37,796 nucleotides of DNA from a virus: IMG/VR virus record IMGVR_UViG_3300001596_000098, positions 1 through 37,796 of that record; one strand, given 5' to 3'. Position numbers and translations under genes: made by a program. This document shows, piece by piece, positions 536-37,796 of this stretch. The notes beneath the pieces were generated by a model. The model was given only the letters and a program-made list of their open reading frames with translations, had not been told where the DNA came from and searched no databases. Numbering within the stretch: the first letter of the stretch is position 1; each line of letters opens with the position of its first letter.

Positions 536-1606
536 CTAGTCTTCCATGACCTCTTCAACACCATCCGGATCGATGATCGCTTCGGCGATCAGACCGGCAT
601 TCTGGCGAATGGCAAGTTCGATTTCACCGGAAATTTCCGGATTGTCCTTCAGGAACTGCTTTGCGTTCTCACGCCCCTGCCCGAGGCGCTGGCTGTTATA
701 GGAGAACCACGAGCCGGACTTCTCGACCACATTGCCCTTGACGCCAAGATCGATCAGTTCGCCCATCTTGGAAACGCCTTCGCCATAGACGATGTCGAAT
801 TCCACCTGACGGAAAGGAGGTGCGAGCTTGTTCTTGACCACCTTGACCCGGGTCTGGTTGCCAACCACCTCGTCGCGGTCCTTGATCGACCCGATGCGGC
901 GGATGTCGAGGCGGACGGAGGCATAGAACTTCAGCGCGTTGCCACCGGTCGTGGTCTCCGGAGAGCCGAACATCACACCGATCTTCATGCGGATCTGGTT
1001 GATGAAGATGACCATGGTGTTGGACTTGGAGATCGACGCGGTGAGCTTGCGCAGAGCCTGGCTCATCAGCCGGGCCTGCATGCCCGGCAGGCTGTCGCCC
1101 ATTTCGCCTTCAAGCTCGGCCTTGGGTGTTAGCGCGGCAACGGAGTCGATCACAAGCACGTCGATCGCGCCGGAGCGGACCAGCGTATCGGCGATCTCCA
1201 GCGCCTGTTCGCCGGCATCCGGCTGCGAAATCAGAAGATTGTCGATGTCAACGCCGAGCTTGCGGGCATAGAGCGGATCAAGCGCGTGCTCCGCATCGAC
1301 AAAGGCACAGATGCCGCCTTCCTTTTGCGCTTCGGCGACCGTGTGCAGCGCCAGGGTCGTTTTACCGGAGGATTCCGGCCCGTAGATCTCAACGATACGC
1401 CCGCGCGGCAGTCCGCCGATACCAAGTGCAATATCGAGACCGAGGGATCCGGTTGAGACCGACTGGATCTCAACGGCCTGTCCCTGCCCCATCCGCATGA
1501 TGGATCCCTTACCAAAGGACCGTTCGATCTGGCTGAGCGCTGCGTCCAGCGCTTTTGTCTTATCCATCTGGCTGCTTTCTACGAGACGAAGTGAATTTTG
1601 CGACAT
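536..1606 (-). CDS. recA: RecA recombinase
   Basis: A 356-residue protein of normal RecA length. RecA forms ATP-dependent filaments on single-stranded DNA, drives strand exchange, and stimulates LexA and phage-repressor self-cleavage in the SOS response. Visible motifs are Walker A GPESSGKT near residues 80-87, the Walker B strand [11 protein letters not shown], the loop segment [20 protein letters not shown] and [21 protein letters not shown]. The acidic C-terminus is typical. The start (ATG 1606) has GGAG upstream. A LexA-like site lies in the promoter region and an intrinsic terminator follows the gene. Nothing is truncated. The gene borders a block of accessory DNA on its upstream side. 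Confidence 0.99.
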
Positions 1607-1657
1607 GGCTCACGCTCCTTATTCCACGATGGACGCGTTGTTACAATGGAAGCGTTT

Positions 1658-1672
1658 GTACACTTTTTGTTC
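1658..1672. promoter_or_regulatory. Probable LexA (SOS) box in the recA promoter
   Basis: On the plus strand the site reads GTAC-N7-GTTC (GAAC-N7-GTAC on the recA strand), one base from the direct-repeat GTTC-N7-GTTC or GAAC-N7-GAAC operator described for alphaproteobacterial LexA. It lies about 52-66 bases upstream of the recA ATG, a fitting position for SOS repression. The assignment is by motif and position only. Confidence 0.6.
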
Positions 1673-1800
1673 TCAAAACGCAAGAGCGCAGAACAGTCTG
1701 GTATTTCAATAGAAATCACCGTTTGTTTCCAGTATGTTCCACTTGGCATGATGAGAGCATACCCTAGCGTCAGAAAACAAAGGAAACAGTTTGTGTGTAG

Positions 1801-1919: not shown

Positions 1920-2471
1920 CTAAGCAGATTTCAGTTGCTTTGGTTTGTCGCCATAGTCGTCAGAAGACAGCGAAGCGGAATTTCGAACATCGGTGAACAG
2001 TTTCTGATTTCCAGCTCTTGCCACCAACAGTGCCTGTTTCTTGTTGAGTTCAAGCACAGCGAAGAACGTACGCACCACTGCCGACACACGATCCGCAAGC
2101 AACGCAACCGAAACTGCAGCGAGGCAAATAACAATTCGGCGAATCAAATCAACGTGTGGGACGTTCTTGGTGTATTCCAGGCCGACGCTGGCAAGAAGAA
2201 GCAGGATTGAAACCAAAATCAGTACGAACGCCGCGACTAACACCTTCAGGATGTTTTTGAGCTTCTCATGGAGCTCTTTGACAATTTTAGGAGTTCGCTC
2301 GTCACCCTTCATGGCCCCGACAACGAGGCTCATGCTCGGAAATATGCCAGCACCCATCAAAGCAATCCCAGGCACCAAAACCCGCGCGAGAGGTTCTACT
2401 GCTGCAAAGGGAATGTAAACCGCCACAATCGCGGTGATGAGAATGCTAGTGATCCGAATCATCTTCGCCAA
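1920..2471 (-). CDS. RexB-like membrane protein with four hydrophobic segments
   Basis: A 183-residue protein with hydrophobic segments near residues 5-25, 30-52, 74-97 and 111-135. A charged stretch (54-73) lies between segments 2 and 3, and a polar C-terminal tail follows. Lambda RexB has the same topology: four segments, a basic link before the third, and an F-x-x-L-type exit helix after the fourth. RexB is an inner-membrane ion channel that depolarises infected cells when activated by RexA. The start overlaps the end of the RexA-like gene by 26 bases, so the two are translated together in the order rexA-rexB. Kiwa KwaA also has four membrane segments but normally precedes its partner. Topology and order are seen; the function is inferred. 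Confidence 0.55.
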   Translation of the reverse strand: MAKMIRITSILITAIVAVYIPFAAVEPLARVLVPGIALMGAGIFPSMSLVVGAMKGDERTPKIVKELHEKLKNILKVLVAAFVLILVSILLLLASVGLEYTKNVPHVDLIRRIVICLAAVSVALLADRVSAVVRTFFAVLELNKKQALLVARAGNQKLFTDVRNSASLSSDDYGDKPKQLKSA

Positions 2472-3456
2472 TTAGGTTTATTCGCCCTTGGGCTGCCCAA
2501 GCATACAACGTCTCTGTGATTTTCACTATGGCGTCCTCTGCATCCAACCAGGACTCAATCTGATTAACCCTGACTGGCTCCGATAGCTTGAGCAGACCAT
2601 TCTTCATCTTTCCGCCCCGGCCATCGAGGGTCATTCGATCTTCCTCAAAATTCCTGAAGGCGTGATCCAGGGTGCTTGGGCTCAGGTTAACCCGCTTTCC
2701 TTTTTCTTTGATGAACACTCGGAAGTCACCCTCAAGTGTTCCACCTTCAGGCACATTTGATGCGAGGTCCTGTACGGCATCATCGGAAAACCCAAGGATT
2801 TTCAAAACGTCTAATACGGTTGCGCCTGCTCCTTTTGCCTTTTCTGCAAAGCGCGATATCGGACCTACATCCGTTTCACGCAGATTAGAAGTTGGATGGA
2901 TGGAAATCTGGTTCGCCGCAGGAACACTTTTTCCTTCATACTCTATCTTGACCTGCGCGTTCAGTTCGATGTGATCTTCACCTTCGATCACGTCACCAAT
3001 GTCCTTCAACAACCATGTCAGGTACCTTTCCAGCCACTTGCCAGTAACAACGTTTGAGGCAATCAAGCCAACATTGTCACCAATGACGACGAAATAGAGC
3101 ACTCCTTCAATGGGCTTGGACTTGCCGTCCGTTTGAAATTGCACAACTGGAAAGACCTTTTCGTCATTTTCGAGCTGTTCAACAATCGCTGGAACATCGA
3201 AGCCTTTTCGATACAAAACGAGCTGACCCGATAAGGCCGCATCGCTAGGTCGCAAACCTGATACTTGGTTCAAAAGTGTCATTTGTCCACTTTGCTCGAG
3301 GTCAGCAATCCGCGCACGTGCAACTTCGCCGACGATGTCTTCTCCACGTTTTGCCTCCATGGCCTTTCTAATGGCAGCCATCAACGTGGTGACCTTTTGG
3401 CCACATGATCTGCGGTTGAGGTATCTGAACTGAACATTCCTTGTGACGCGTGCCAT
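2446..3456 (-). CDS. RexA-like soluble sensor protein (putative abortive infection)
   Basis: A 336-residue protein without signal peptide or membrane segment. Compared by eye with lambda RexA (279 residues, from memory), blocks line up in order: an N-terminal strand-helix with YLNRRSCGQKVTTLMAAI; YFVVIGDNVGL at 121-131 against RexA FLFVEGDTIGF; VLDVLKILG at 214-222 against RexA DILKVLG; then an IK-basic strand at 249-255 and a Leu-rich strand before a helical C-terminus. RexA is a DNA-binding sensor that activates the RexB channel during phage infection. The downstream gene is RexB-like. The start is ATG 3456 with only a weak ribosome site. The gene is AT-richer than its surroundings, suggesting transfer. 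A KwaB (DUF4868)-type protein is an alternative. The family call is moderate; defence function is inferred. Confidence 0.5.
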   Translation of the reverse strand: MARVTRNVQFRYLNRRSCGQKVTTLMAAIRKAMEAKRGEDIVGEVARARIADLEQSGQMTLLNQVSGLRPSDAALSGQLVLYRKGFDVPAIVEQLENDEKVFPVVQFQTDGKSKPIEGVLYFVVIGDNVGLIASNVVTGKWLERYLTWLLKDIGDVIEGEDHIELNAQVKIEYEGKSVPAANQISIHPTSNLRETDVGPISRFAEKAKGAGATVLDVLKILGFSDDAVQDLASNVPEGGTLEGDFRVFIKEKGKRVNLSPSTLDHAFRNFEEDRMTLDGRGGKMKNGLLKLSEPVRVNQIESWLDAEDAIVKITETLYAWAAQGRINLIGEDDSDH

Positions 3457-3658: not shown

Positions 3659-4297
3659 GTGTCTTCTTCAAGCTGTCACTCATTGTTGACCACAACCCTT
3701 TCGCGTGCTTCCAATTGTGCAGTCAAGCGTGGGACGGGTGCCGTGGCAATACTGATTTATGAACCAAAGGAACTGCGTGAGAAGCGCGACAAACTCCGCA
3801 GACAGAACCTAGATAGAGACGCCTTCATGGCCGCCTACAAGGAGGAAAAATATACAAGCCCGGAGCCCGTGGACGGCCCTATCGAGTTGTTTAGCGTAAC
3901 CGACAAAGAAGGTGGAAATCACTTCTATCTTCAGATCAACCGACTCGCCGAAGGGGAACCTGGTGGCGCAGTTTCGATGTCGATCGACGAACTGATCGAT
4001 GCCTTCCGTGCGCATTTGGATTTTGAGCATTCCAGGGCAATCTCTGAAGCGACCCTCGATCGGTACAAAGACGGCTCAAATCCGTCAATTTTCTACATGG
4101 GCGGTTTTTACGATCCACTGAACACCATGGAAGATCACAGGGACTTCATCCTCGACTTGATCAGCAAGCTGAAAGGTTCCGTCGAAAGCTTAGAGAGCGA
4201 TCTGCCGCGCTATGAGGCATGGATCGACAATCAGAAAAAGAAAAGGAAGATCCGCAAGGATTGGCCACCCGCTCACCCGCCACGCTCACAGGATTAG
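3659..4297 (+). CDS. Conserved hypothetical protein A (paralogue of next gene)
   Basis: Function unknown. The longest frame opens at GTG 3659, but the first 28 residues look non-coding. A GTG at 3743 (giving about 184 residues), preceded by a G-rich stretch, is a plausible start. The protein is polar, with no membrane segment. The part from ELREKRDKLRRQ is helical. Its C-terminal half shares a pattern with the next gene: a Ser-[IV]-[DE]-E-[LF] helix start, an H/C-R-D helix, then Leu/Ile-Pro-aromatic-x-A-W-I followed by a charged stretch and a Pro-rich end. It heads a plus-strand cluster divergent from the RexAB-like pair. No terminal modules of known families were recognised. Confidence 0.65.
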   Translation: MSSSSCHSLLTTTLSRASNCAVKRGTGAVAILIYEPKELREKRDKLRRQNLDRDAFMAAYKEEKYTSPEPVDGPIELFSVTDKEGGNHFYLQINRLAEGEPGGAVSMSIDELIDAFRAHLDFEHSRAISEATLDRYKDGSNPSIFYMGGFYDPLNTMEDHRDFILDLISKLKGSVESLESDLPRYEAWIDNQKKKRKIRKDWPPAHPPRSQD

Positions 4298-4307
4298 GTG
4301 CACGACA

Positions 4308-4790
4308 ATGGCAGAAGTCTACATAATCGAAGACGGCAACGCGCTAGGTGAACACCGATCAATCAGGGGCAATCTGCGCGTCTTCCTTTTCAGCGTCGAT
4401 GATAGCTATGCGAACGCACAACTTTGCTTTCAACCCTTCCCGAACAACGAAAAGCGGGAAGCCGGCCTGATGGTAAGCGTCGAGGAGTTCAAGGAGCACA
4501 TCAAGTCGACCCACTCCTACGACAACGTGCTCACGGCATTGATTCGCTTGAACCGGGACGGCGAAAAGGTAACCGAGAAACTGGAGATGTTGCCGGGCGA
4601 AGCCGACATTCTTGGCAGGATGAAACACTGCCGCGACGATGCAATCGCATACGCAAAACTGTTTCGCGAACTTGCCGACCACCTTGACAAGGAAATTCCG
4701 TTTTTCAACGCGTGGATCAGCCAAGAAGAACAGGAACGCAAGGTCGAGTACCCCCACTACATGAAGCCGCCAGAAGATGATGACGAATGA
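4308..4790 (+). CDS. Conserved hypothetical protein B (paralogue of previous gene)
   Basis: Function unknown. The protein is 161 residues from ATG 4308, ten bases after the stop of the previous gene. A longer upstream frame overlaps that gene and is rejected. Alignable blocks with protein A include VSVEEFKEHIKS against SIDELIDAFRAHL, CRDDAIAYAKLFREL against HRDFILDLISKL, and EIPFFNAWI against DLPRYEAWI, with both proteins ending in a charged, proline-containing tail. The pair therefore looks like an old tandem duplication. The stop overlaps the next ATG (ATGA), which implies coupled translation. No catalytic motif or membrane segment is visible. Confidence 0.75.
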   Translation: MAEVYIIEDGNALGEHRSIRGNLRVFLFSVDDSYANAQLCFQPFPNNEKREAGLMVSVEEFKEHIKSTHSYDNVLTALIRLNRDGEKVTEKLEMLPGEADILGRMKHCRDDAIAYAKLFRELADHLDKEIPFFNAWISQEEQERKVEYPHYMKPPEDDDE

Positions 4791-5038
4791 CCTTCACGAC
4801 CTTTTTTACCGCGATGGGTGTCAAGAAAAACGCTGGCGGGTTTTTTGTCGCGGTAGATGCAGTGCAGTTGCTCTCGGCCGCTGATGCGATCGCCGCAGCG
4901 GAACGGCTAGCTGGCCGCCACATGGGTGCGGTTGCGTTCAGCCGACAAGGTGACCCGGACACGGGCGATTTCGAAGTCGCAATAGAACTCGCAAAGTTCG
5001 GCGCACTCCCAGAAGATCTGTCGAGCATCTTCGCTTAA
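4787..5038 (+). CDS. Small conserved hypothetical protein C
   Basis: An 83-residue protein whose ATG overlaps the stop of gene B by four bases, so it belongs to the same operon. The middle part, DAIAAAERLAGRHMGAVAFS followed by RQGDPDTGDFEVAIELAKFG, reads like a small alpha/beta protein. I recall similar G-D-P-D-x-G-x-F sequences in small uncharacterised alphaproteobacterial and phage proteins, but I cannot name a family. No membrane segment or signal is visible. Function unknown. Confidence 0.7.
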   Translation: MTFTTFFTAMGVKKNAGGFFVAVDAVQLLSAADAIAAAERLAGRHMGAVAFSRQGDPDTGDFEVAIELAKFGALPEDLSSIFA

Positions 5039-5185
5039 AGGCCCGTTTAAATGACCTTTGAAAGGCGTTCGGGGACGCTTGCGTCGCGAAAAGAGTAAGC
5101 CCTGCAGACCACCGCCGCGAAGATGCTTCAATTGACCACTAACAATGGCCAGCGTGGATGTTTAAGTCCCCACGGAGCACCCTTT

Positions 5186-5503
5186 ATGTCTCAGTTCGAA
5201 ATTATTGACACGCTTCGCAGCGAGACCGAAAACGCCGACGCAGCAAGCGCCAACGCCCTTGCACGCAATTCGCTCGTCCGAGTGAAAGAGTTTCTCTCCA
5301 CGTTTGACGCTAACGAAGCCTGCCAGCTGGCAGGTGACCACGTCACTGTCAGTTGCCAGCGTTTGGCGGTGCATCTCATTGCATCGACCGATCCCAATGA
5401 CGCAGAAAAATCGGTCATTGAGGACCTTCGAACTGCAGCTATCGAAGCAATCGACCGCATGCAAGTCGTATGTGAACACTATGGTCCATCCGGTCCGGTA
5501 TAG
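5186..5503 (+). CDS. Small helical hypothetical protein D
   Basis: A 105-residue protein starting at ATG 5186 with GGAG about ten bases upstream. A 147-base gap separates it from gene C, so it may have its own promoter. It is predicted to be almost entirely helical (long runs such as NALARNSLVRVKEFLSTF and IEDLRTAAIEAIDRMQVV) with no hydrophobic membrane segment. It is the last plus-strand gene before the prophage, and its 3' end faces the prophage genes. Function unknown. It could be chromosomal or part of the accessory block. Confidence 0.65.
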   Translation: MSQFEIIDTLRSETENADAASANALARNSLVRVKEFLSTFDANEACQLAGDHVTVSCQRLAVHLIASTDPNDAEKSVIEDLRTAAIEAIDRMQVVCEHYGPSGPV

Positions 5504-5593
5504 ACTCTCGGCATGTGACGAAGGGAAGTCCGTTTCCTCAGCTGATAGTGGCAGGAATCACAGGTGCAGAGCCTGATCACTGATTCTTAATTC

Positions 5594-5827
5594 CTATAGG
5601 GCAGATTTCTGTGGCGACCCCGCATAGTCGCAGAGGTGTTTTGCGATTGTTTGTTCCGAGGTCTTTCGCAAAACACCTCCAATTTTAGGTGATCTTGATC
5701 CCCAGTTTGGACACTCATCCGCGCGATCAACACAGGCTCCGCACACTTCTTTGCCTTCGATCAGATGCGATTCGTGAAAGTCGGTATCGACCTTTCGTTC
5801 GCAGCTGCTGCAGATCATGATGCTCAT
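5594..5827 (-). CDS. Com-like zinc-ribbon protein, 77 residues
   Basis: The start at ATG 5827 gives MSIMICSSCERKV; upstream in-frame codons belong to the preceding gene's territory. Four cysteines occur as CxxC at the N-terminus and CxxC about 25 residues later (CGAC), which suggests a small zinc ribbon. Mu carries the zinc-finger translational activator Com at the same end of its genome, although no mom-like gene is seen here. The last third spans the 14-bp inverted repeat, so the C-terminus may be encoded by chromosomal DNA beyond the phage end. Analogy to Com is inference from position and cysteines. Confidence 0.6.
   Translation of the reverse strand: MSIMICSSCERKVDTDFHESHLIEGKEVCGACVDRADECPNWGSRSPKIGGVLRKTSEQTIAKHLCDYAGSPQKSAL
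5633..5679. repeat. Perfect 14-bp inverted repeat at the prophage-chromosome junction
   Basis: GAGGTGTTTTGCGA at 5633-5646 is exactly repeated in inverse at 5666-5679 (TCGCAAAACACCTC) with a 19-base spacer. It could be a terminator between the converging plus-strand cluster and prophage (the plus strand has ATTTTA just after it), or transposase-binding sites at the phage end. It lies within the 3' part of the Com-like reading frame. Confidence 0.6.
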
Positions 5828-5840
5828 GGCTTGGCGGCTC

Positions 5841-6398
5841 CTAGGCTTCCCACGCCAGCGGCTCAACTCCGAGCGCGTCCGCCAAGGCAACAGCTCTGGC
5901 AAGCGCGGTGTTCAGGATGTCCTTGTACTTCATCGGATCTTCCTCGGCCTCCAATGCCATGTACGTTGCCCGGCGCAAGCCCGCGATTTTTCGAACCAGC
6001 TTCCGGTACCGCTTGCCCTTCGCCACGATCAACGCCGCAAGCTCGGCAAGCGTTTCGCCGGTCTCATCGGCTTCGTCCTGAAGGACCTCAAGCTGCTCGG
6101 CCGTCGCAGTGCCGTCCTGAAACGCAATCGCAGCAACTTCCTTGTCTGCCCAGGACAACTGCTCACCAGTCGACACCAGGCCGGTTACGTGATCCTCAAA
6201 GGCCTTCACGTATTCGAGGATCATCGCCTTGGCGCTCTCAAGCGAGTATTTCGGCCGGGCCGGTGGCCTTGAAAACGTGCCGTCTCCGTTGTCTGTATCG
6301 CCGGGGAACACGCTATCGTCCACGGCAGGCCATCCGGTCTTTGCGTCAAAGCTGATCATGACAACTTTGCCGTCAATGATTTCTGCGAATTTGGTCAT
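5841..6398 (-). CDS. Tail-fibre assembly-like protein
   Basis: A 185-residue protein starting MTKFAEIIDGKVVMISFD, with an N-terminal segment ending in DNGDGTFSRPP. This style of opening (a short host-facing or 'current state' segment followed by an N-G-D-G-T-F linker) is common in proteins encoded directly after phage tail fibres. The rest is helical and charged. The ATG overlaps the fibre stop (TGATG), so production is tied to that of the fibre. The likely role is chaperoning fibre folding or attachment. No fibre-repeat or enzymatic motif is seen. The family is not named with certainty. Confidence 0.6.
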   Translation of the reverse strand: MTKFAEIIDGKVVMISFDAKTGWPAVDDSVFPGDTDNGDGTFSRPPARPKYSLESAKAMILEYVKAFEDHVTGLVSTGEQLSWADKEVAAIAFQDGTATAEQLEVLQDEADETGETLAELAALIVAKGKRYRKLVRKIAGLRRATYMALEAEEDPMKYKDILNTALARAVALADALGVEPLAWEA

Positions 6399-8278
6399 CA
6401 GATCGCCTCCAACGTGATTTCCCCGAAAACTTCGACGCTGCCGAAGCTCGTCTGAATACCGAGACCATCACTGCTTTTTGTGATCTCGCACTCATACTCC
6501 ATTTGGTACGTCTTGCCTGGCTCAAGGAAGCACGTTCCGGAAACCATTCCGGAGCTTAAGGTCCCCGACCTGATGAACTGCGAAACACCGACACCAGCGT
6601 CGACACCATCGGTAACGTTACGAATAAACAGGTTGGTTCGGTGCGTGTTGTAGAAGAACGCCCTATAAACGGCCTTGCATTTGGTCGTGATCGTGAATTG
6701 GTTCGATGATATCGATGCAATCCCGTTTGGATCTTCAACCTCCGTATTGATCGGATACAGCTGCCTTGAACCGCTCGTTGCAGCGCCTCCGTTTGTGCCG
6801 CTTGGCTGTTGATGCTGAAGGATCGCAACAGACCCGATCTTGGTTTCGTTCGCGTTTGCCTTGGACAGCGCATCAGCCGTGTCCTGGATGACCTGCGTCG
6901 CCTGCAGCGGGGTTGGATCGTCAACACCGTTGGTGACCCTGACAAGGATGAAACCAACGATCGTTTTCGGGCGCGTTTCCGTCGAAACACGTGCGCCGGC
7001 TTCTGTAGCCGGACCATCGGTTGCGATCTGGAAGACTTCCGTTGAACTGGCATTGTTCCCTGTGATCCTGAAGCCGGTGTCCACGTTAGGAATGCCGGTG
7101 TCCTCGTCCGTCACCTCAGGCCTACTTCCTGAAGCATTGGAGGACATGTTCTGACCGTGAATATGGTCTTGCAACGCATCAAGCATAGTGACGCCCATTG
7201 CCCCGGCCGCGTCCGGGTTGAGCGCCTGAGACGGATCGCCAAAGCGGAAATAGTTGCCTTCAAATGGCGGAAACGGACACGTGGTTGCCCCGTCGCCATT
7301 GCCCCACCGGAACACCCGGCAGGTGGTTCCGTTCGCGGTCGCATTCGCAGACAAGGTTACTTGAGACGGACCGTCGACAGACAGGATGGTGGTCCCGACC
7401 GGGATCTGCGCACCCTCGACCTCCATGCCGGCCGCAAAGCCGTTATCCGAGCCGATGCCGGAAACAATGGCAGATCCGCTGTTGATGACGACAGTGCGCT
7501 CGGGCGCATAGTGATCGAACAACTCCGAATAGGTTGCACGGCTGAACACTTGGGTCGCCGACTTCACAACGATGTAGTCGGCACTCGGCGGCAGGTCGCT
7601 CATCCAGATCCCGGAGAAGCCAACCGGAACGCCGCCGCCGAGGTCTGCAACGTTCGCCTTTTCCGCGTCCAGCTCCTCAAGAGCGGTCTGGACGTTGTCA
7701 GCGGCAATGCCACCGGCCGGAGAAAACGCAATATTGACCGCGTCACTGGCCGCCGCAGCTGCGGCAGCGACAGCGATGTCTTTAGCATCACTCGCATCAG
7801 ATGCGGCTTGAACAGCAGCGGTCGCAGCGACCTGAGCGTCGGCAATATCAGCCGCTGTGGGGCCGGCAGTGGGATTGCCGTCGGCATCAAAGATGGGCAC
7901 CGTCCCTGCCCTGGTGGCTGCATCAGGAAACTCGGTGATCGACTCCCCGACCGGCACCCTTAGCGAGCGAGACAGATCGGTCTCAGGCAAAGGCCCGAGC
8001 TTTGTCCAAGCCCCGGAGCCGGCACTGCCAGATTTCTGGTAGACGCCATTGTTCTCGGTCGTATCGCCCCAGACCCGCCCCTCAGATCCAGCCGGCCAGT
8101 TCAGATCCGCCTGCAGTTCGACCAGCGTTGAATAGTCCGGCCCGCGTTGCGCGTCGATCTGCGCAGACAAGCTGGCGAAGGGAATGGCTCCAAGGGACTT
8201 CACACCGCCTGTTTCGGTGTGACCGATCAGTTCGTCGATCGCAGAGACTTCAGGTATCGTATCAGACCTAACGCCCAT
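6398..8278 (-). CDS. Tail fibre / receptor-binding protein
   Basis: A 626-residue protein with GGAG ahead of ATG 8278. The N-terminal 120 residues contain a Trp/Gly-rich segment (around GRVWGDTTENNGVYQKSG) as in tail-tip-attached fibres. An Ala-rich, probably coiled stalk follows near residues 140-190. The middle resembles a tail-collar region, with WGNGDGATTCPFPPFEGNYF followed by a DHIHG motif and ETRPKTIVGFILVRV, a combination typical of phage collar/fibre proteins. The distal 150 residues form a likely beta-rich receptor-binding head. It follows the J-like gene after 11 bases. Specific receptor unknown. Confidence 0.85.
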   Translation of the reverse strand: MGVRSDTIPEVSAIDELIGHTETGGVKSLGAIPFASLSAQIDAQRGPDYSTLVELQADLNWPAGSEGRVWGDTTENNGVYQKSGSAGSGAWTKLGPLPETDLSRSLRVPVGESITEFPDAATRAGTVPIFDADGNPTAGPTAADIADAQVAATAAVQAASDASDAKDIAVAAAAAAASDAVNIAFSPAGGIAADNVQTALEELDAEKANVADLGGGVPVGFSGIWMSDLPPSADYIVVKSATQVFSRATYSELFDHYAPERTVVINSGSAIVSGIGSDNGFAAGMEVEGAQIPVGTTILSVDGPSQVTLSANATANGTTCRVFRWGNGDGATTCPFPPFEGNYFRFGDPSQALNPDAAGAMGVTMLDALQDHIHGQNMSSNASGSRPEVTDEDTGIPNVDTGFRITGNNASSTEVFQIATDGPATEAGARVSTETRPKTIVGFILVRVTNGVDDPTPLQATQVIQDTADALSKANANETKIGSVAILQHQQPSGTNGGAATSGSRQLYPINTEVEDPNGIASISSNQFTITTKCKAVYRAFFYNTHRTNLFIRNVTDGVDAGVGVSQFIRSGTLSSGMVSGTCFLEPGKTYQMEYECEITKSSDGLGIQTSFGSVEVFGEITLEAI

Positions 8279-8289
8279 CAGGTTTTCTC

Positions 8290-11286
8290 CTATGTGACAG
8301 TCGCCGTGAACGGCCCGGCGATCGTGCCTGCCTGGTCATTCAGGTTTTGAGGTTCAAGGTAGTAGTCGTAAGTGCCGGCAGGCAGCAGACTGGTGTCCTG
8401 ACCGGTGGCATCGCCATCGACAACGACAAGGGTCGAGGACTTCGAAACCGGCTGCGTGAGAATGAGGTCTGTCGACCTATCCAGCGTGCCGCCAGTCGCC
8501 AAGCGGTAGATCGCCACCTTCGTGACGTTGTCGTCGTTCTGCGTAACGATCGTGATATCCGCATGGGCAACATCACCAGCAACGCCGCTGCCGGCACCAA
8601 GCGCCAACGGCAATCCTGCATCGTCTTCACCGATCGTGACGGTCGCGGTCGTATTGTAAGGACCGGCCGTGTTGTTCGGTGTGAGCGCACGGGCCCGAAG
8701 ATTGACGGTGTCGCCGCTGGTGTAACCGGCGATCGAGAGGCCGCCATCAGCGGACGGAATGTTTTCAACGGTCCAGTCGGTGGTTCCATTGAGGCGATGC
8801 TCCACGTCGAAAGATCCGACGATCGCGGAGCTGCCGACCCCTTGAGAAATCAGAACGTCAAGACCGTCAGCGGTCCCGGTGCCGGCTATGCCGGTTCTGA
8901 CCGTTGTGAAGACGGGTGCTGCCGGGACCAGGAGCGGATCGTTCAACTCGCTGCCAATGACGCCCGACCAGATCGGCGGCGCTTCCGCGTCGGTCAAAGT
9001 GTCGATCACCGGGGACGCGTCGATCATGACAACGTGGCTGGTGAAATCATCACCAGCTTCAACGCCCTTGACGATCAGGGGCAGGCTTTCCGACACCGAT
9101 CGGCCGAAATGAACAATGTCGCCCACCTCTGGCATCAACCCGCTGCCGTCCAGCGTGAGCGCATTTGTCGTCTCTTCCTTGGTGGCAACGCTGCGGACGG
9201 TCGAGGTGCCGATCGTATCGGCTTCGCTCAAACCGGAGCGGAAGCGGATGGCGTAGTTCTCGCCGGCTTCCATGGTCACGTCCTCATCGAGCACGATCAT
9301 CTTACCGGTGACTTTCTTCACGCGTGAAGCGATCTGCGTCTGATCGAGCGTGTCGAAGGATCCCATGACAAGGTCACCGCGTGTCGCAACGCGGGCCGCG
9401 CCGTCTTGCGTGGCGCTGTAGCGGTTCGGCCGGTGCAGCAGCTCATACTGACGCCGGCGTCCTTCAATCCAGATTTCGTCCGGATTGGTCTTGCCCGGCA
9501 GCTCGATCTCTTCCGTGACCTCGATCTCACCGGCAAAGCCCGGCCAAGGCACAATGCGTTCGGCAGGCTCGTAGTCGTTGGTCTCATCGAAGAACGGGAT
9601 CCGGAACGCGTCGGGTGGGTCGAAGTAAGTCCGCTGCCAATTGAAATTGTCCGAGTTGCGCGGACTGATGTGGTCAATCACCAGCTCCTGCGGCTTGTCG
9701 ACGACAACGCCCCATTGAACACCATCATGCTGCGGTGTGGCGCGGCCTGCCGCTGCGATCAGCTGCAGTGTCTCCAAGAGCGCCAGATCGCCGTCCTGGA
9801 CGAAGTTGAATTCAAGGCCTTTCAAAGCGCAGTAATCATGCCACTCGGCAAGCTGCGTCAGATTAATGGCGCTGTCAGCGACCGGATAGGCGTTGGCGTC
9901 AGACTGAAGCGCAAAGCGGAACAAGGAAGCCGGATTGGTGGTCTCCCGTTCAATCCAAGTTCCGGTACCGCTGTCCCAATCGAGGCAGACGCGTGAGCAA
10001 AGGGCGCTGAGATTGTCGAGCGAACCATTGAGCTGATAGGTCGCCTTGATCCGGACCGCAACGATCGCCAGCGGCTTGTCGAAGTTGAGCGGATATTCCG
10101 GCCGCGTCGTCTGGACGGCAACAAGCACGGAGCGGTCCTGAACGCGTGAGCTGGTCCGCTCATCCGTCATCCGGGTCACTTCGATCTCATAGCGGCCGCG
10201 CGCAGGAAACTCCCAGCTGTGCTGCCGGTAGAATGCCTCGCGCTTGCCGGCACTGACATTCAAGGTGGTCACTTCCGTCCAGTCGTCTCCGCTGTCCAAG
10301 GCCCGGTACCGGATCCGGATCGATACAGTCAGGGACTGCAGGTTGCCGTTGTTGTCGTAGTTGAAGAGACCACCCGGGAAGGACACGATCACCGAGGCAC
10401 CGGTACCGTTCGCAGCCGAATAGCGAACCACCGGCTCTTCGGTCGCAGCTCCCGATATGACGTTGCCGGCGTCGTCGCGTGGCTTTGGCCTGGTCAAATC
10501 CGTCCCGGCAAGATCTTCGACCACCTGTTTCGGATAGAGAGTGATCGGCTCATCGCTGGCAAGGCCGTCGCGCGTCTCGATCTCAACCTCGTCATACTCA
10601 TCGAGATTGGTGGTGCCGATCATGAATTCAGAGAGCTTGACCTGACCATAACTGACCACAAAGAGCGAGCGGATATACTGAATGTCGCCGACGATCTCGG
10701 TATAGGAGATCGCCGCAAATGGCGGCGCATAGCGATGCTTGCCGAAGACCACGGGAACCGGCTCATCCGGTGCAAGCCGGTTTTTCCAGCCCTGAATGGT
10801 GAAGGACTGCTTGACGTCGCTGTCACTGTTGCTGGTGGCCGGATCCGTCGAGGCGGGCGGCACCAGGGCGTTGATCAAAAGATTGCCGAGAGCCGTGACA
10901 CCAAGCGTCAACAAACCTTGTGCAACGCCGACTGAAACACCGAGGGCACCGGCAAGCGGGACAGCCCAAAATTGACCGATGGCGATCGCCGCGATCGCGA
11001 CGACAACCTGCAGGATGGAGCGAAGCGCGTTCTTGCCGGGAAGCACGCGGATGACGACACGGACGCCCGGCCGGGGCCGAACGAATTGCCAGTTCTCCCG
11101 CTCAATGACAACCGCGCCACGCTCATTGACCAGGGTCACCCGGAGCGGGAGTTCTCCATTGAGAGCGGCCGGCAACGTGGTGGCGACGATCTCGGCAACG
11201 GTCAGGCCCATCGGCAGTTCGAAATCAATCCGCGCGGATCCCGGATCGAACAGCGGCGCGGCGATGACAGGAAGGGTGTCAGACAT
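8290..11286 (-). CDS. J-like central tail-tip / host-specificity protein
   Basis: A protein of about 998 residues from ATG 11286; the start overlaps the NlpC/P60 gene by eight bases. Position after NlpC/P60 and before the fibre, plus size, fit the lambda gpJ-type baseplate hub and tip. After an N-terminal domain there is a hydrophobic stretch at about residues 110-165 (VVVAIAAIAIGQF and AQGLLTLGVTALGNLLINAL), a hallmark of these proteins. A long beta-rich body follows, including PVPVVFGKHRYAPP-type and EVDVE-like tip-attachment segments. The C-terminal third looks like fibronectin-type repeats. The protein sits at the tip and contacts the host surface. Confidence 0.85.
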   Translation of the reverse strand: MSDTLPVIAAPLFDPGSARIDFELPMGLTVAEIVATTLPAALNGELPLRVTLVNERGAVVIERENWQFVRPRPGVRVVIRVLPGKNALRSILQVVVAIAAIAIGQFWAVPLAGALGVSVGVAQGLLTLGVTALGNLLINALVPPASTDPATSNSDSDVKQSFTIQGWKNRLAPDEPVPVVFGKHRYAPPFAAISYTEIVGDIQYIRSLFVVSYGQVKLSEFMIGTTNLDEYDEVEIETRDGLASDEPITLYPKQVVEDLAGTDLTRPKPRDDAGNVISGAATEEPVVRYSAANGTGASVIVSFPGGLFNYDNNGNLQSLTVSIRIRYRALDSGDDWTEVTTLNVSAGKREAFYRQHSWEFPARGRYEIEVTRMTDERTSSRVQDRSVLVAVQTTRPEYPLNFDKPLAIVAVRIKATYQLNGSLDNLSALCSRVCLDWDSGTGTWIERETTNPASLFRFALQSDANAYPVADSAINLTQLAEWHDYCALKGLEFNFVQDGDLALLETLQLIAAAGRATPQHDGVQWGVVVDKPQELVIDHISPRNSDNFNWQRTYFDPPDAFRIPFFDETNDYEPAERIVPWPGFAGEIEVTEEIELPGKTNPDEIWIEGRRRQYELLHRPNRYSATQDGAARVATRGDLVMGSFDTLDQTQIASRVKKVTGKMIVLDEDVTMEAGENYAIRFRSGLSEADTIGTSTVRSVATKEETTNALTLDGSGLMPEVGDIVHFGRSVSESLPLIVKGVEAGDDFTSHVVMIDASPVIDTLTDAEAPPIWSGVIGSELNDPLLVPAAPVFTTVRTGIAGTGTADGLDVLISQGVGSSAIVGSFDVEHRLNGTTDWTVENIPSADGGLSIAGYTSGDTVNLRARALTPNNTAGPYNTTATVTIGEDDAGLPLALGAGSGVAGDVAHADITIVTQNDDNVTKVAIYRLATGGTLDRSTDLILTQPVSKSSTLVVVDGDATGQDTSLLPAGTYDYYLEPQNLNDQAGTIAGPFTATVT

Positions 11287-33518: not shown

Positions 33519-35675
33519 TTAGGACGCGGGCGGTACGCGGTTTCGGCGCTCTTCCTTGTCTTCCCAAATCAGTTTGTGAGCGCGATATTCGGGACCGGCC
33601 TGATAGCCGGTGAGCCAGATGGCATCGTCATCGGAAAGCGGCGTTCCATCGGAAATCCGCTGTTCGATTTGCAGGGCACGCTGAAAACGGCTTTCAGGCG
33701 TTTCCATGGTTGGAAGCTTCTGGACATTCGCGGCTGGCTTCGGAGCCTCGGCCTTCAGGCGTTCGTGCATCGCCGCTTCACGATCGCTGAGCGCACGCGG
33801 TGCACGTTTCTTGCGGACTTCACCGGCAGAGAGCGTCTTAGTGGTCTGATGCTCTTGGCGCTTCTGCGGGAAGCTCAGAACATCGGCGTTGCCCTGGTAG
33901 GCGGCGCGTTGTGCTTCCATGACTGTGCGCGGTGTGATCTTGCGTTTTGCCTTCCGGATCTCGACAAGGTTCGCCTCTTCGACCGACTTCTGCATGGCGC
34001 GGACCTTGGCGATCGTCTCGGCTGGATCGAGCCCGGCAAGATCCGGACAGACGGCTTCGCCAAGATAGGTTTCACCATCCGGCTCAAACAGCCAGAGGCG
34101 TCCGAGGTCGGACGGATCGTGGCGGCAAAACACCTGCGTGTCAGGCATGACGGCACAAATCGGCAGGTAGTGTTCCCCGTCGACCTTGACGCCCTGTTTG
34201 GTGACCTTTCTGAAACCGTCCTTGCCCGCAACAGGTGCCAACAACACGTCCAGGGATCCCAGGTCATTGATCGCCCTCACCTCACCTCTCCACGCGTTGG
34301 CGACTTCAAAAGGTGTCTTCCGCTTCAAACCTTCATGCGGCGTGTGCGCATATTGCTCGCGGCACCAACGGTCCGCCTCGGCCTGCAGCTCGACCGTCGT
34401 CAGATCGACCTGAAACCGTTTGGCATCATCCGTCCCGAGACGGCTAGCGAAACTCTTTCGCGCTTCGATCACCTTCCGGTCTGCAACCGAGTGCCCGATG
34501 AAGCCGGGCAACGTTGCGGCGCAATTGCGCTGGAAGGTCCCAATGACCCGTTCCACGGTCCCCTTCTGCTGCGGACTGTAGGGCGCTGAGAACTCCTGTT
34601 CGATCCCGAGACTATCCAGCAATTGGACGGTGGCACGGGCTGCGAAGTCGGAGCCGTTATCGGTCTTGATCAGCTCCGGGACGCCCCATTCCAGTAGGCA
34701 CTTGCGGATCAGCATGCCGACTGCAGCAGCGCGCGGTGTGTCAGTGATCAGCAGCACGATCCGGCGCGAATAAAGGTCGATCGCCATATAGAGGTTCTTG
34801 CGCCCGTCCGTGGTCATGACATCGACCGGTGAGGCATCGACTTCCCACTTCTCATTGAGCCGGGAGACGCGATTGGCACCTGTCGCAGAGAACCGGATAT
34901 GAGACCGGTAGGCATCCGGGTCGGTGATCTTCAGAAGCTCGTTCTTGTGCGCTTCCTTCCAGCCTTTAAGGGCGTTTTGAAAGGTCCTTATAGGCGGGAC
35001 CGGTACCTGTTTGCCGCCTGCGGCGACCGATGGTCCAAACCGGTGAATGACGGCATTGCGGATATGCTCTGCAGAGGTGAACTGGTTCTCGGCGTAAAGG
35101 GCGAGGCAATAGACCTTCACTTCGCCGCCTTCGGCCCGGTCCAGGACGCCTGTCCCTTTCCGGGCCTTGGACGGGTCCGCCGCAAGCAGGTTGATGTTTT
35201 CTTTTGCCTGAGCCCGCCAGCGCACAAGGGTGCGGGCAGAAAGCCGCTTGACGTTCTCTAGCACCCATTCAGGCACCGGCACCTTGCTGTCATCAAAGAG
35301 CTGCGCAAACAGGTGATCCGATGCGGTGGCGCCCATGCCGCAAGTCTTGCGGAAGCGCTCGGCTACTTTCAGCACGACCAGCTTGGCATCGCGCACGCTG
35401 CATTCGCGCCGGGTCAGCTCATTGCTGGTTTCAGTCCGGTAGTCTTCGCGCTCGACCTGCACGAACGAACCCGCATATTGAAGCCTCTGCGGCAGCGGAA
35501 GCAGATCGATATGGTATTCGGCGCCCCCGCCCCCTTCCCGGCCCGCCCGTTTGCGGCAAAACTGGCTCACCGCCCAATCCTCGCGCTCGGCAAGTTTTTG
35601 AACACCGCGCTTTGATGATGGAAAGCCATCCAGGGCAAGATCGGCGATCTCCTGAGCGGTCAGCCAGAGCTTCAT
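33519..35675 (-). CDS. MuA-like DDE transposase
   Basis: A 718-residue transposase. N-terminal winged helix typical of Mu (WLTAQEIADLALDGFPSSKR) at residues 1-60. The catalytic core carries D280 (WEVDASPVD), D339 (LIKTDNGSDF) and E375 (KGTVERVIGT), a D-D-35-E spacing shorter than MuA. A C-terminal domain follows that would bind the ATPase (beta-barrel near residues 470-550). It performs strand transfer in integration and replicative transposition. The start overlaps the upstream HTH gene (ATGA). It looks intact. Confidence 0.95.
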   Translation of the reverse strand: MKLWLTAQEIADLALDGFPSSKRGVQKLAEREDWAVSQFCRKRAGREGGGGAEYHIDLLPLPQRLQYAGSFVQVEREDYRTETSNELTRRECSVRDAKLVVLKVAERFRKTCGMGATASDHLFAQLFDDSKVPVPEWVLENVKRLSARTLVRWRAQAKENINLLAADPSKARKGTGVLDRAEGGEVKVYCLALYAENQFTSAEHIRNAVIHRFGPSVAAGGKQVPVPPIRTFQNALKGWKEAHKNELLKITDPDAYRSHIRFSATGANRVSRLNEKWEVDASPVDVMTTDGRKNLYMAIDLYSRRIVLLITDTPRAAAVGMLIRKCLLEWGVPELIKTDNGSDFAARATVQLLDSLGIEQEFSAPYSPQQKGTVERVIGTFQRNCAATLPGFIGHSVADRKVIEARKSFASRLGTDDAKRFQVDLTTVELQAEADRWCREQYAHTPHEGLKRKTPFEVANAWRGEVRAINDLGSLDVLLAPVAGKDGFRKVTKQGVKVDGEHYLPICAVMPDTQVFCRHDPSDLGRLWLFEPDGETYLGEAVCPDLAGLDPAETIAKVRAMQKSVEEANLVEIRKAKRKITPRTVMEAQRAAYQGNADVLSFPQKRQEHQTTKTLSAGEVRKKRAPRALSDREAAMHERLKAEAPKPAANVQKLPTMETPESRFQRALQIEQRISDGTPLSDDDAIWLTGYQAGPEYRAHKLIWEDKEERRNRVPPAS

Positions 35676-36133
35676 TTTGACCCCCGGAGCTGCATTTGAA
35701 GGGTTTTCTTGCGGGTCGCCACCATGCGCTCGTGATCCTCGATCAGAGCCAATTCGATGACGTTCTCGTAGCGCTTCGGGATCACCGCGAGCTCAAACTC
35801 ATCGGCCACAAAGCCGAGCAGTTCTGTCTTGCCGGTCGCATGGACAAGCGCGATGAAACGCTCGACCGTGATGTTGTTGCCGGCCTTCGCTTCGCTGGCA
35901 TAACCTTCGAGCGCGGCAACCGTGATTTTGGTATCGAGCTGCTCGCTCATTAGCCCGGCAATCGTGGTTCGGTCTTTGCCGCACTCTTTCATCGCCTTGG
36001 CGATCGCACGGCTGATCCGCGATCCAAGCCGGTTGCCCGAGATTTCGCCCGGCTCGAAGCCAACCGAAACGCGCGGTGGCTTCCAGTCGCGGAACATGTC
36101 GGCGGTATAGGGATCGCGGGGTGTCCTACTCAT
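35672..36133 (-). CDS. Early phage HTH-like protein
   Basis: A 153-residue protein; its ATG at 36133 overlaps the ParB-like stop by eight bases. A central helical domain (ISRAIAKAMKECGKDRTTIA, then LMSEQLDTKITVAALEGYA) resembles a small HTH/XRE-like fold; NITVERFIALVHATGKTELLG follows, as in regulators that read metabolic or DNA states. It is found just ahead of the transposase in related phages. A role in regulating transposition is inferred only from this position. Confidence 0.7.
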   Translation of the reverse strand: MSRTPRDPYTADMFRDWKPPRVSVGFEPGEISGNRLGSRISRAIAKAMKECGKDRTTIAGLMSEQLDTKITVAALEGYASEAKAGNNITVERFIALVHATGKTELLGFVADEFELAVIPKRYENVIELALIEDHERMVATRKKTLQMQLRGSK

Positions 36134-36965
36134 CGAGCCAGCCCTCTTGTTTGACGAGCGCGACGATCTCTTTCTTGTGCTGACGGAAGACGTTCTTCCG
36201 GATCGCCGGCGTCAACCTGGGCAGATACTCGCTAACGGTTTTGAACCGTTTTTCACTGTCGCTGAGCTTCTTCCGGCCATTGATGACGAACACCGCGTCG
36301 GCGATCGAGCCGGCAGAAGGGTTTTCCGCGAGCACCTGATCCAGGACGTCTGCCTGCATCTGCGGTTCTAGACAGGAGAGCGCCTTCAGATCGGACTGTT
36401 TTTCGGCGAGTGCGGTGCCTTTCAGGCGCTCGCGTGTCTCTCGCGTGAGGCCCTCGAAAATCTGCACCGCCAATTCTACGGAGCGGCGTGAAAGGCCTGT
36501 TGCATCGCTTGCGTTTTGGCAAAACGCAAAGATTGCGACTTGCCTCTTTTGGCCGCCAATATGCTGGTTCCCACGCTTGCCGCCATGCTTGGCTTCAGGG
36601 TGCAGTGCTTCATAGATCCGCTTCATTTCGAACAGCGCTTCGCACCGTTCCAGCGGGTTGAAATCCTTGCGGCCAAGGTTTTCAAGGATCTCGTGAAGCC
36701 GCAGATCATCTACAGCGCCTACCCCTTGTGGCTCGAGCAGACGGGCCTCGATCATTTTCCACTTGGCGATCTTGGCCGCCGACAGGCGATGCGCCCCGGC
36801 AACCAGGGTAAACCTCTTGTCCGATGCGACAACGTCGATCGGGGTTTTTTGTCCGGTCTCGATAAACATACCGGCGAGACATTCGGCCCAGTCCTGATCC
36901 ACATCCCGCAGGCGATCCGCAGGGACATCAATCAGCGACAGTTTGATGGACTGATACGCGCTCAT
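36126..36965 (-). CDS. ParB/Srx-domain protein
   Basis: A 279-residue protein from ATG 36965 with GAGG upstream. Residues 1-100 form a ParB/sulfiredoxin-type domain: IDVPADRLRDVDQDW, TPIDVVASDKRFTLVAGAHR (the box with GAHRL at 57-61) and EILENLGRKDFNPLERCEAL. The second half has a KorB-like helix-turn-helix (SDATGLSRRSVELAVQIF) and a basic C-terminus. ParB proteins bind DNA and CTP, and some are nucleases or regulators. In this phage group it precedes the transposase genes. The start is just behind an intrinsic terminator, so expression is likely regulated by read-through. Confidence 0.9.
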   Translation of the reverse strand: MSAYQSIKLSLIDVPADRLRDVDQDWAECLAGMFIETGQKTPIDVVASDKRFTLVAGAHRLSAAKIAKWKMIEARLLEPQGVGAVDDLRLHEILENLGRKDFNPLERCEALFEMKRIYEALHPEAKHGGKRGNQHIGGQKRQVAIFAFCQNASDATGLSRRSVELAVQIFEGLTRETRERLKGTALAEKQSDLKALSCLEPQMQADVLDQVLAENPSAGSIADAVFVINGRKKLSDSEKRFKTVSEYLPRLTPAIRKNVFRQHKKEIVALVKQEGWLDE

Positions 36966-36986
36966 GAAGCCTCTAATGCTTGTTTC

Positions 36987-37030
36987 AAAAAAGACCGGGC
37001 GGCGCTTGGTACGACCCAATGGCCGCCCGG
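36987..37030 (-). terminator. Intrinsic terminator / attenuator ahead of parB
   Basis: On the minus strand CCGGGCGGC (37030-37022) pairs with GCCGCCCGG (37003-36995) around an 18-base loop, then TCTTTTTTG follows. It ends only 21 bases before the parB ATG, so it separates the Ner cassette from the transposition genes, or serves as an attenuator. Confidence 0.8.
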
Positions 37031-37560: not shown

Positions 37561-37796
37561 TACGCCGCTTCCCTGTCCGGAGTCGCCTCGCCTTTCTGGC
37601 TAGCGCCATAGTCGTCATGTTTGCTAGAAAGGATTCGGGCGGTCCGTTTCGGATACCGGTCAGGCCAGAGATCGTCGGGTTTCATTTCAAGGAAATCCGC
37701 AATTGCGCTCTCGGCCTTGCGGTTGGTTCTTGTCCATACTTGGGAAAAGGTTTTGAGCTGAATGCCCGCACCTTTTGCCAACTCGCCGAAAGTCAT
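37560..37796 (-). CDS. Ner-like DNA-binding regulator, partial
   Basis: The visible 78 residues include ELAKGAGIQLKTFSQVW, then KAESAIADFLEMKPDDLWPD and RYPKR, which match the Ner/SfsB family (a x-A-I-A-x-x-L-G-V-x-P-x-x-I-W-P-x-R-Y core). Ner represses early phage promoters after infection. The family normally has another 15-20 residues before this part, so the apparent Met at the window edge is probably internal and the gene continues past 37796. The C-terminus (residues 50-78) is longer than Mu Ner. Confidence 0.85.
   Translation of the reverse strand: MTFGELAKGAGIQLKTFSQVWTRTNRKAESAIADFLEMKPDDLWPDRYPKRTARILSSKHDDYGASQKGEATPDREAA

Follow-up and report, generated by a model that had tools for sequence, protein, structure and literature searches.

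RexAB was the first abortive-infection system to be associated with phage defense. In lambda, the globular domain of RexA is split by a dimerization domain, and the structural kin published for this protein are Chl4/CENP-N, Iml3, and RdgC (PMC11077077). Only five described RexAB systems were counted in 2026 (PMC12894663). RexABpp, encoded by PP_5643-PP_5644 in prophage P1 of Pseudomonas putida, was shown to give protection and to damage membranes; its soluble component RexApp (37.5 kDa when His-tagged) aligned to the lambda RexA structure 8TWQ with a DALI Z of 8.8, while RexBpp is a four-transmembrane (four-TM) protein of at least 181 amino acids for which HHpred gave no homolog (PMC12894663).

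The window analyzed here, the whole 37,796-nucleotide stretch of IMG/VR virus record IMGVR_UViG_3300001596_000098, carries a pair of overlapping genes that is RexAB-type in the broad sense and lies outside the lambda RexA and RexB sequence families. The pair probably serves in prophage exclusion (abortive infection) as a divergent cassette of the RexAB type, and a Mu-like phage of the marine bacterium Roseibium carries it at its right end as accessory cargo. An earlier note on this DNA had called RexAB relatives outside lambdoid and actinophage settings poorly described, which is outdated, as RexABpp of P. putida has a similar plan and near-equal sizes (PMC12894663, 2026). RexABpp (January 2026) removes part of the novelty of the locus; the added point is phrog_3482, the family matched by the soluble protein, as an apparent Rex lineage.

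1920-2471, minus strand: RexB-like gene, four-TM membrane protein of 183 aa with four hydrophobic segments, presumed effector
2446-3456, minus strand: RexA-like gene, soluble protein of 336 aa, predicted RexA-fold sensor or DNA clamp, phrog_3482
1796-1842, no strand: right terminus of the Mu-like phage, host homology ending at 1795, terminus shared with the related prophages L149 and L153
32692-33567, minus strand: MuB-like transposition gene, phrog_296, E 2e-47
33519-35675, minus strand: MuA-like transposition gene, phrog_310, E 2e-101

Gene pair and carrier phage

The two overlapping minus-strand open reading frames (ORFs) were recovered with the coordinates and sizes (336 and 183 aa) that had been given for them, and both genes are taken to be real because relatives retain both ORFs in the same order. 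The reported 26-base overlap presumes that the second gene starts at the TTG at 2471; with the in-frame ATG at 2462 as start, it shrinks to 17 bases. The pair is AT-richer than its flanks, as had been claimed: its G+C content is 49.5%, compared with 59.5% in the phage beginning at 5000 and 57.0% in the host flank; beyond 5000, the lowest 1537-bp window has at least 54.6% G+C, that is, none is as AT-rich as the pair. A sigma-70-like promoter was sought upstream of the pair and not found, which is weak evidence given that the host is an alphaproteobacterium.

The pair sits inside a Mu-like prophage, in the right-end cargo zone just within the terminus, and the sequence is phage from 1796 on. Positions 1-1795, including the Roseibium host gene recA at 536-1606, share 98% identity with Roseibium sp. 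MMSF_3544, after which the sequences part, and alignments with the two related prophages L149 and L153 both stop exactly at 1796. Host identity up to 1795 together with a conserved phage terminus at 1796 places the pair within the phage, and its earlier placement between recA and a Mu-like prophage was thus not borne out, as the phage itself reaches 1796 beside recA. The terminus reads TGTAGCG... and contains two tandem 20-bp repeats (1801-1820 and 1823-1842) at 22-bp spacing; the termini of the window phage, L149, and L153 all read ...GAAGTTGCGCGCTACA, with tandem repeats spaced by about 22 bp that are probably transposase-binding sites. The phage insertion lies approximately 190 bp upstream of recA (window 1606-1796), so that the recA promoter region stays on the recA side, where a LexA-box-like GTAC-N7-GTTC was read by eye at about 1659-1673.

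The MuA-like and MuB-like genes identify the carrier as a Mu-like phage, which also codes for a portal, a head protease, and a lambda-J-like tail protein. Its early region includes a gene for a ParB-like partition protein (36126-37019, minus strand; phrog_3264, E 4e-52), and the record stops at 37796 within this region, the left phage end being outside the window. The pair adjoins no repressor and stands at the phage end opposite the early region. In L149, the terminus comes no more than about 210 bp after the homolog of the 4308-4790 gene and rexAB is missing, and this absence from a related prophage marks the pair as accessory cargo.

Cargo at this end varies between related Roseibium Mu-like prophages, and the right end looks like an accessory-gene hotspot. 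The L149 right-end cargo (4889-9961) comprises a 1246-aa fiber-like protein and a methylase-like protein, and that of L153 (3358-8643) comprises two ORFs with N-terminal hydrophobic segments, adjoining the terminus. The adjacent plus-strand ORFs 3749-4297 and 4308-4790 of the window are distant paralogs (24% identity, E 2e-6) for which a PADLOC search gave no match; the 4308-4790 gene and the 4787-5038 ORF are retained in L149 beside its terminus.

Sequence evidence for the soluble protein

The soluble protein matched phrog_3482, a family with no assigned function, at E 3.1e-19, its residues 108-323 aligning to positions 117-340 of the 344-position profile, a match over most of the protein. 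Searches of Pfam, NCBIfam, and PADLOC gave nothing credible, and no housekeeping family was matched; a clear match of that kind was what the earlier note had named as counting against its reading. Weak one-off Pfam and PADLOC matches to the Card1 endonuclease and Csx1 were rejected as chance, with bit scores far under the cut-off and not common to the relatives. A search of PDB sequences with a 13-sequence profile of the protein also returned nothing.

Similarity to lambda RexA was not significant at this level. The lambda RexA families PF15969 and phrog_12654 gave no match for the soluble protein, and Pfam gave none for 26 relatives either; the Pfam and PHROGs RexA models do recognize lambda RexA itself. 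The motif blocks that had first suggested RexA are present (GDNVG at 126-130 and VLDVLKILG at 214-222), and the best hhalign register pairs the same VLDVLKILG helix, but they do not rise above chance: the hhalign score against lambda RexA was 12.3, whereas the top ten of 60 column shuffles scored 17.6-21.2. HMM-HMM comparison with lambda RexA was not significant in any of several settings, and the check that had been proposed against RexA and RexB gave significant similarity to neither by hhalign.

Predicted structure of the soluble protein

An AlphaFold2 model was built without templates from 27 window and viral-contig sequences, loci from genome searches being left out. With a pTM of 0.64 and a mean pLDDT of 62 overall, it shows a largely confident split globular domain (the N-terminal half plus 290-325), while the insert at 170-290, the central domain, is poorly defined and of low confidence. 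A single-sequence model had a pLDDT of 32 and was discarded as meaningless. Searched with Foldseek against 350,542 PDB chains, the model matched lambda RexA (8TWQ) first, with E 1.3e-4 and a probability of 1.00, this being the only PDB match with E < 0.001. VIA-align superposed it on 8TWQ with a Z of 11.9 over 161 residues at 3.0 A, followed by Chl4/CENP-N (Z 6.8), Iml3 (5.4), and RdgC (4.6). The 8TWQ structure was released in April 2024, later than the AlphaFold2 training cut-off, and since no templates were used either, this structure was not the source of the model. The structural link is clear, and the soluble protein is predicted to have the split-domain fold of lambda RexA; a prediction lacking a RexA-type fold was the other result that the earlier note had named as refuting it. 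The structure prediction thus bears out the RexAB-like reading, which is supported by fold and synteny and not by the motif blocks on which it had partly been built.

The absence of sequence similarity to RexA and RexB would also suit an unrelated DNA-processing pair or some other two-gene defense system; Kiwa (KwaA/KwaB), for example, likewise combines a soluble protein that binds DNA with a membrane protein of four TM segments. Such an origin is scarcely probable, however, given that RexA is the top fold match and that its own structural kin follow. The Kiwa gene order is kwaA (membrane) followed by kwaB (soluble), whereas the soluble gene comes first here. PADLOC reported no Kiwa for the pair or 26 relatives and matched no family consistently among the 27 relatives; Kiwa was also missing from the listed fold matches, absence from such lists not being proof. 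Kiwa is accordingly disfavored by gene order and fold.

The membrane partner

As had been described, the sequence of the second protein contains four hydrophobic segments (7-25, 36-54, 77-95, and 107-125), and its basic N-terminus, middle loop, and tail favor a topology with both termini inside. At 10 loci, the closer RexA-like relatives have a homolog of this 183-aa protein as their partner, but none was detectable among gammaproteobacterial partners. Neither lambda RexB family (PF15968 or phrog_14878) gave a profile match, and hhalign with lambda RexB was not significant. Because partners lack detectable homology across the family, the soluble protein appears from these comparisons to be the conserved element, the membrane partners either evolving very fast or being exchanged.

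That lack of homology means that a pore role for the partner cannot simply be assumed, and the roles could be reversed, with the soluble RexA-like protein as a toxic antiviral effector sequestered by the membrane protein until infection. A reversal of this kind has been described for mycobacteriophage Butters gp30/gp31 (PMC12894663). We consider it highly unlikely for the window pair: in lambda, CarolAnn, Sbash, and RexABpp the membrane protein is the effector, and the four-TM plan resembles that of RexBpp, in which membrane-gene mutations relieve toxicity (PMC12894663). The RexBpp mutant residues W25, F35, L55, T103, S145, G153, and Y181 were fitted by no ORF in the loci fetched at that point, and later searches failed to reach RexBpp as well.

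Relatives, pairing, and synteny

The only route to relatives was phrog_3482 together with alignments made from its members. Neither window protein gave a match by direct tblastn in phages, nor did the soluble protein in plasmids; scans of viral and genome contigs with that protein or with close alignments gave none either. By the phrog_3482 route, 150 viral contigs were found to code for relatives of the soluble protein (80 of the 150 were fetched). Among sampled genomes, the family was detected in 3 of 385 from the host's class and in 9 of 398 from its phylum, Pseudomonadota. In a sample of 398 drawn alike, the Pfam model of lambda-type RexA had no match, although it recognizes lambda RexA strongly; this figure comes without a positive genome as control.

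The next ORF encodes a membrane protein in 66 of 69 non-redundant loci, starting between -79 and +27 nt from the stop of the soluble gene. These partners have two to four hydrophobic segments, usually four, and are almost always 160-207 aa long. In lambdoid phages, namely Escherichia phage Perceval and Acinetobacter phages, the pair follows CI with at most one small ORF between, the same place after cI that is the slot of lambda's own rexA and rexB. The Perceval pair (PERCE_43/42) and the Ab1656-2 pair both stand just behind cI.

L044, 3492-5042: unannotated rexAB-position pair directly or nearly after CI (Perceval and Acinetobacter phage set)
L046, 2956-4513: as above
L042, 4001-5508: as above

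One Acinetobacter phage record labels its RexA-like protein "DefenseFinder protein," and one partner among these pairs is labeled "holin-x." Taken together, these relatives make phrog_3482 look like a Rex lineage that is widespread and unannotated. Functional data were found for no phrog_3482 member, which counts against the RexAB reading.

This synteny also bears on whether exclusion is the main role at all. The RexA-like clamp might mainly tune its own phage's repressor switch or transposition decision, restrained by the membrane protein, with exclusion incidental; in lambda, the CI-Cro switch is biased by RexA, with RexB as antagonist (PMC11077077), and many relatives lie directly after cI. 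For the window pair we consider a lysogeny/lysis switch unlikely overall. The pair stands at the phage end opposite the early region and is accessory, missing from the related L149. In a simple screen, 38 of 101 loci (duplicates counted) had a CI homolog no more than 1.2 kb upstream, and other relatives occur in lysis regions or at loci where the screen detected no CI.

Proposed mechanism and significance

We therefore favor a prophage exclusion cassette, for which the predicted fold, the consistent multi-TM pairing, the location, and the lambda-like synteny of relatives form the directly computed basis. Its anti-phage function is inferred by analogy. By the example of lambda RexA and RexABpp, a dimer of the RexA-like protein would clamp DNA and answer a phage-infection signal, probably replication or recombination intermediates. 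Once activated, it would trigger the four-TM partner, which may permeabilize or depolarize the inner membrane; growth would stop, infection by a second phage would be aborted, and the incoming phage would not be produced. The gene overlap would hold the sensor:effector ratio fixed. Sensing is the least certain of these steps, since DNA binding by lambda RexA did not correlate with exclusion (PMC11077077). By residue count, the soluble protein is net acidic (42 K+R vs 50 D+E), which does not favor DNA binding.

A broader and rather doubtful proposal is that DNA clamps with the RexA fold make up a large sensor family of Pseudomonadota phages, for the most part unannotated, that is coupled to interchangeable, mutually non-homologous membrane effectors, with lambda RexAB as a minor branch. 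The window pair would then be a branch moved to the cargo end of a transposable phage, possibly sensing transposition-type replication intermediates.

The apparent Rex lineage to which the cassette belongs is not recognized by standard databases. If the function is confirmed, many pairs labeled "hypothetical protein" would become testable RexAB systems, those of E. coli phages included, and the question of the Rex trigger would gain many natural variants for comparison.

Comparison with known systems

Lambda RexA/RexB (PF15969/PF15968; 8TWQ) shares with the window pair the RexA fold (here predicted), the gene order, the close coupling of the genes, and a partner with four hydrophobic segments. 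The window pair is larger (336 and 183 vs 279 and 144 aa), has neither a profile match nor significant HMM-HMM similarity to the lambda proteins, and does not adjoin cI; its genes overlap, whereas those of lambda are separated by a 15-bp gap. RdgC and Iml3-Chl4/CENP-N, the next structural matches, share the RexA-type DNA-clamp scaffold but have no membrane partner and serve in chromosomal recombination or at the kinetochore. The actinophage Rex systems (Sbash gp30/gp31, CarolAnn gp44/gp43, and Butters gp30/gp31) are by description similar in combining a RexA-like protein with a membrane protein for prophage exclusion, but unlike the window pair they occur in actinobacterial hosts.

RexABpp resembles the window pair in being prophage-borne and in its plan: a soluble protein of about 330 aa with the RexA fold, then a four-TM protein longer than 180 aa. 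For both, the tie to lambda RexA came from structure while homology to RexB was undetectable. They differ in host class and in setting: RexABpp belongs to a cryptic prophage, where a CI-like repressor precedes it, whereas the window pair occupies the cargo end of a Mu-like phage.
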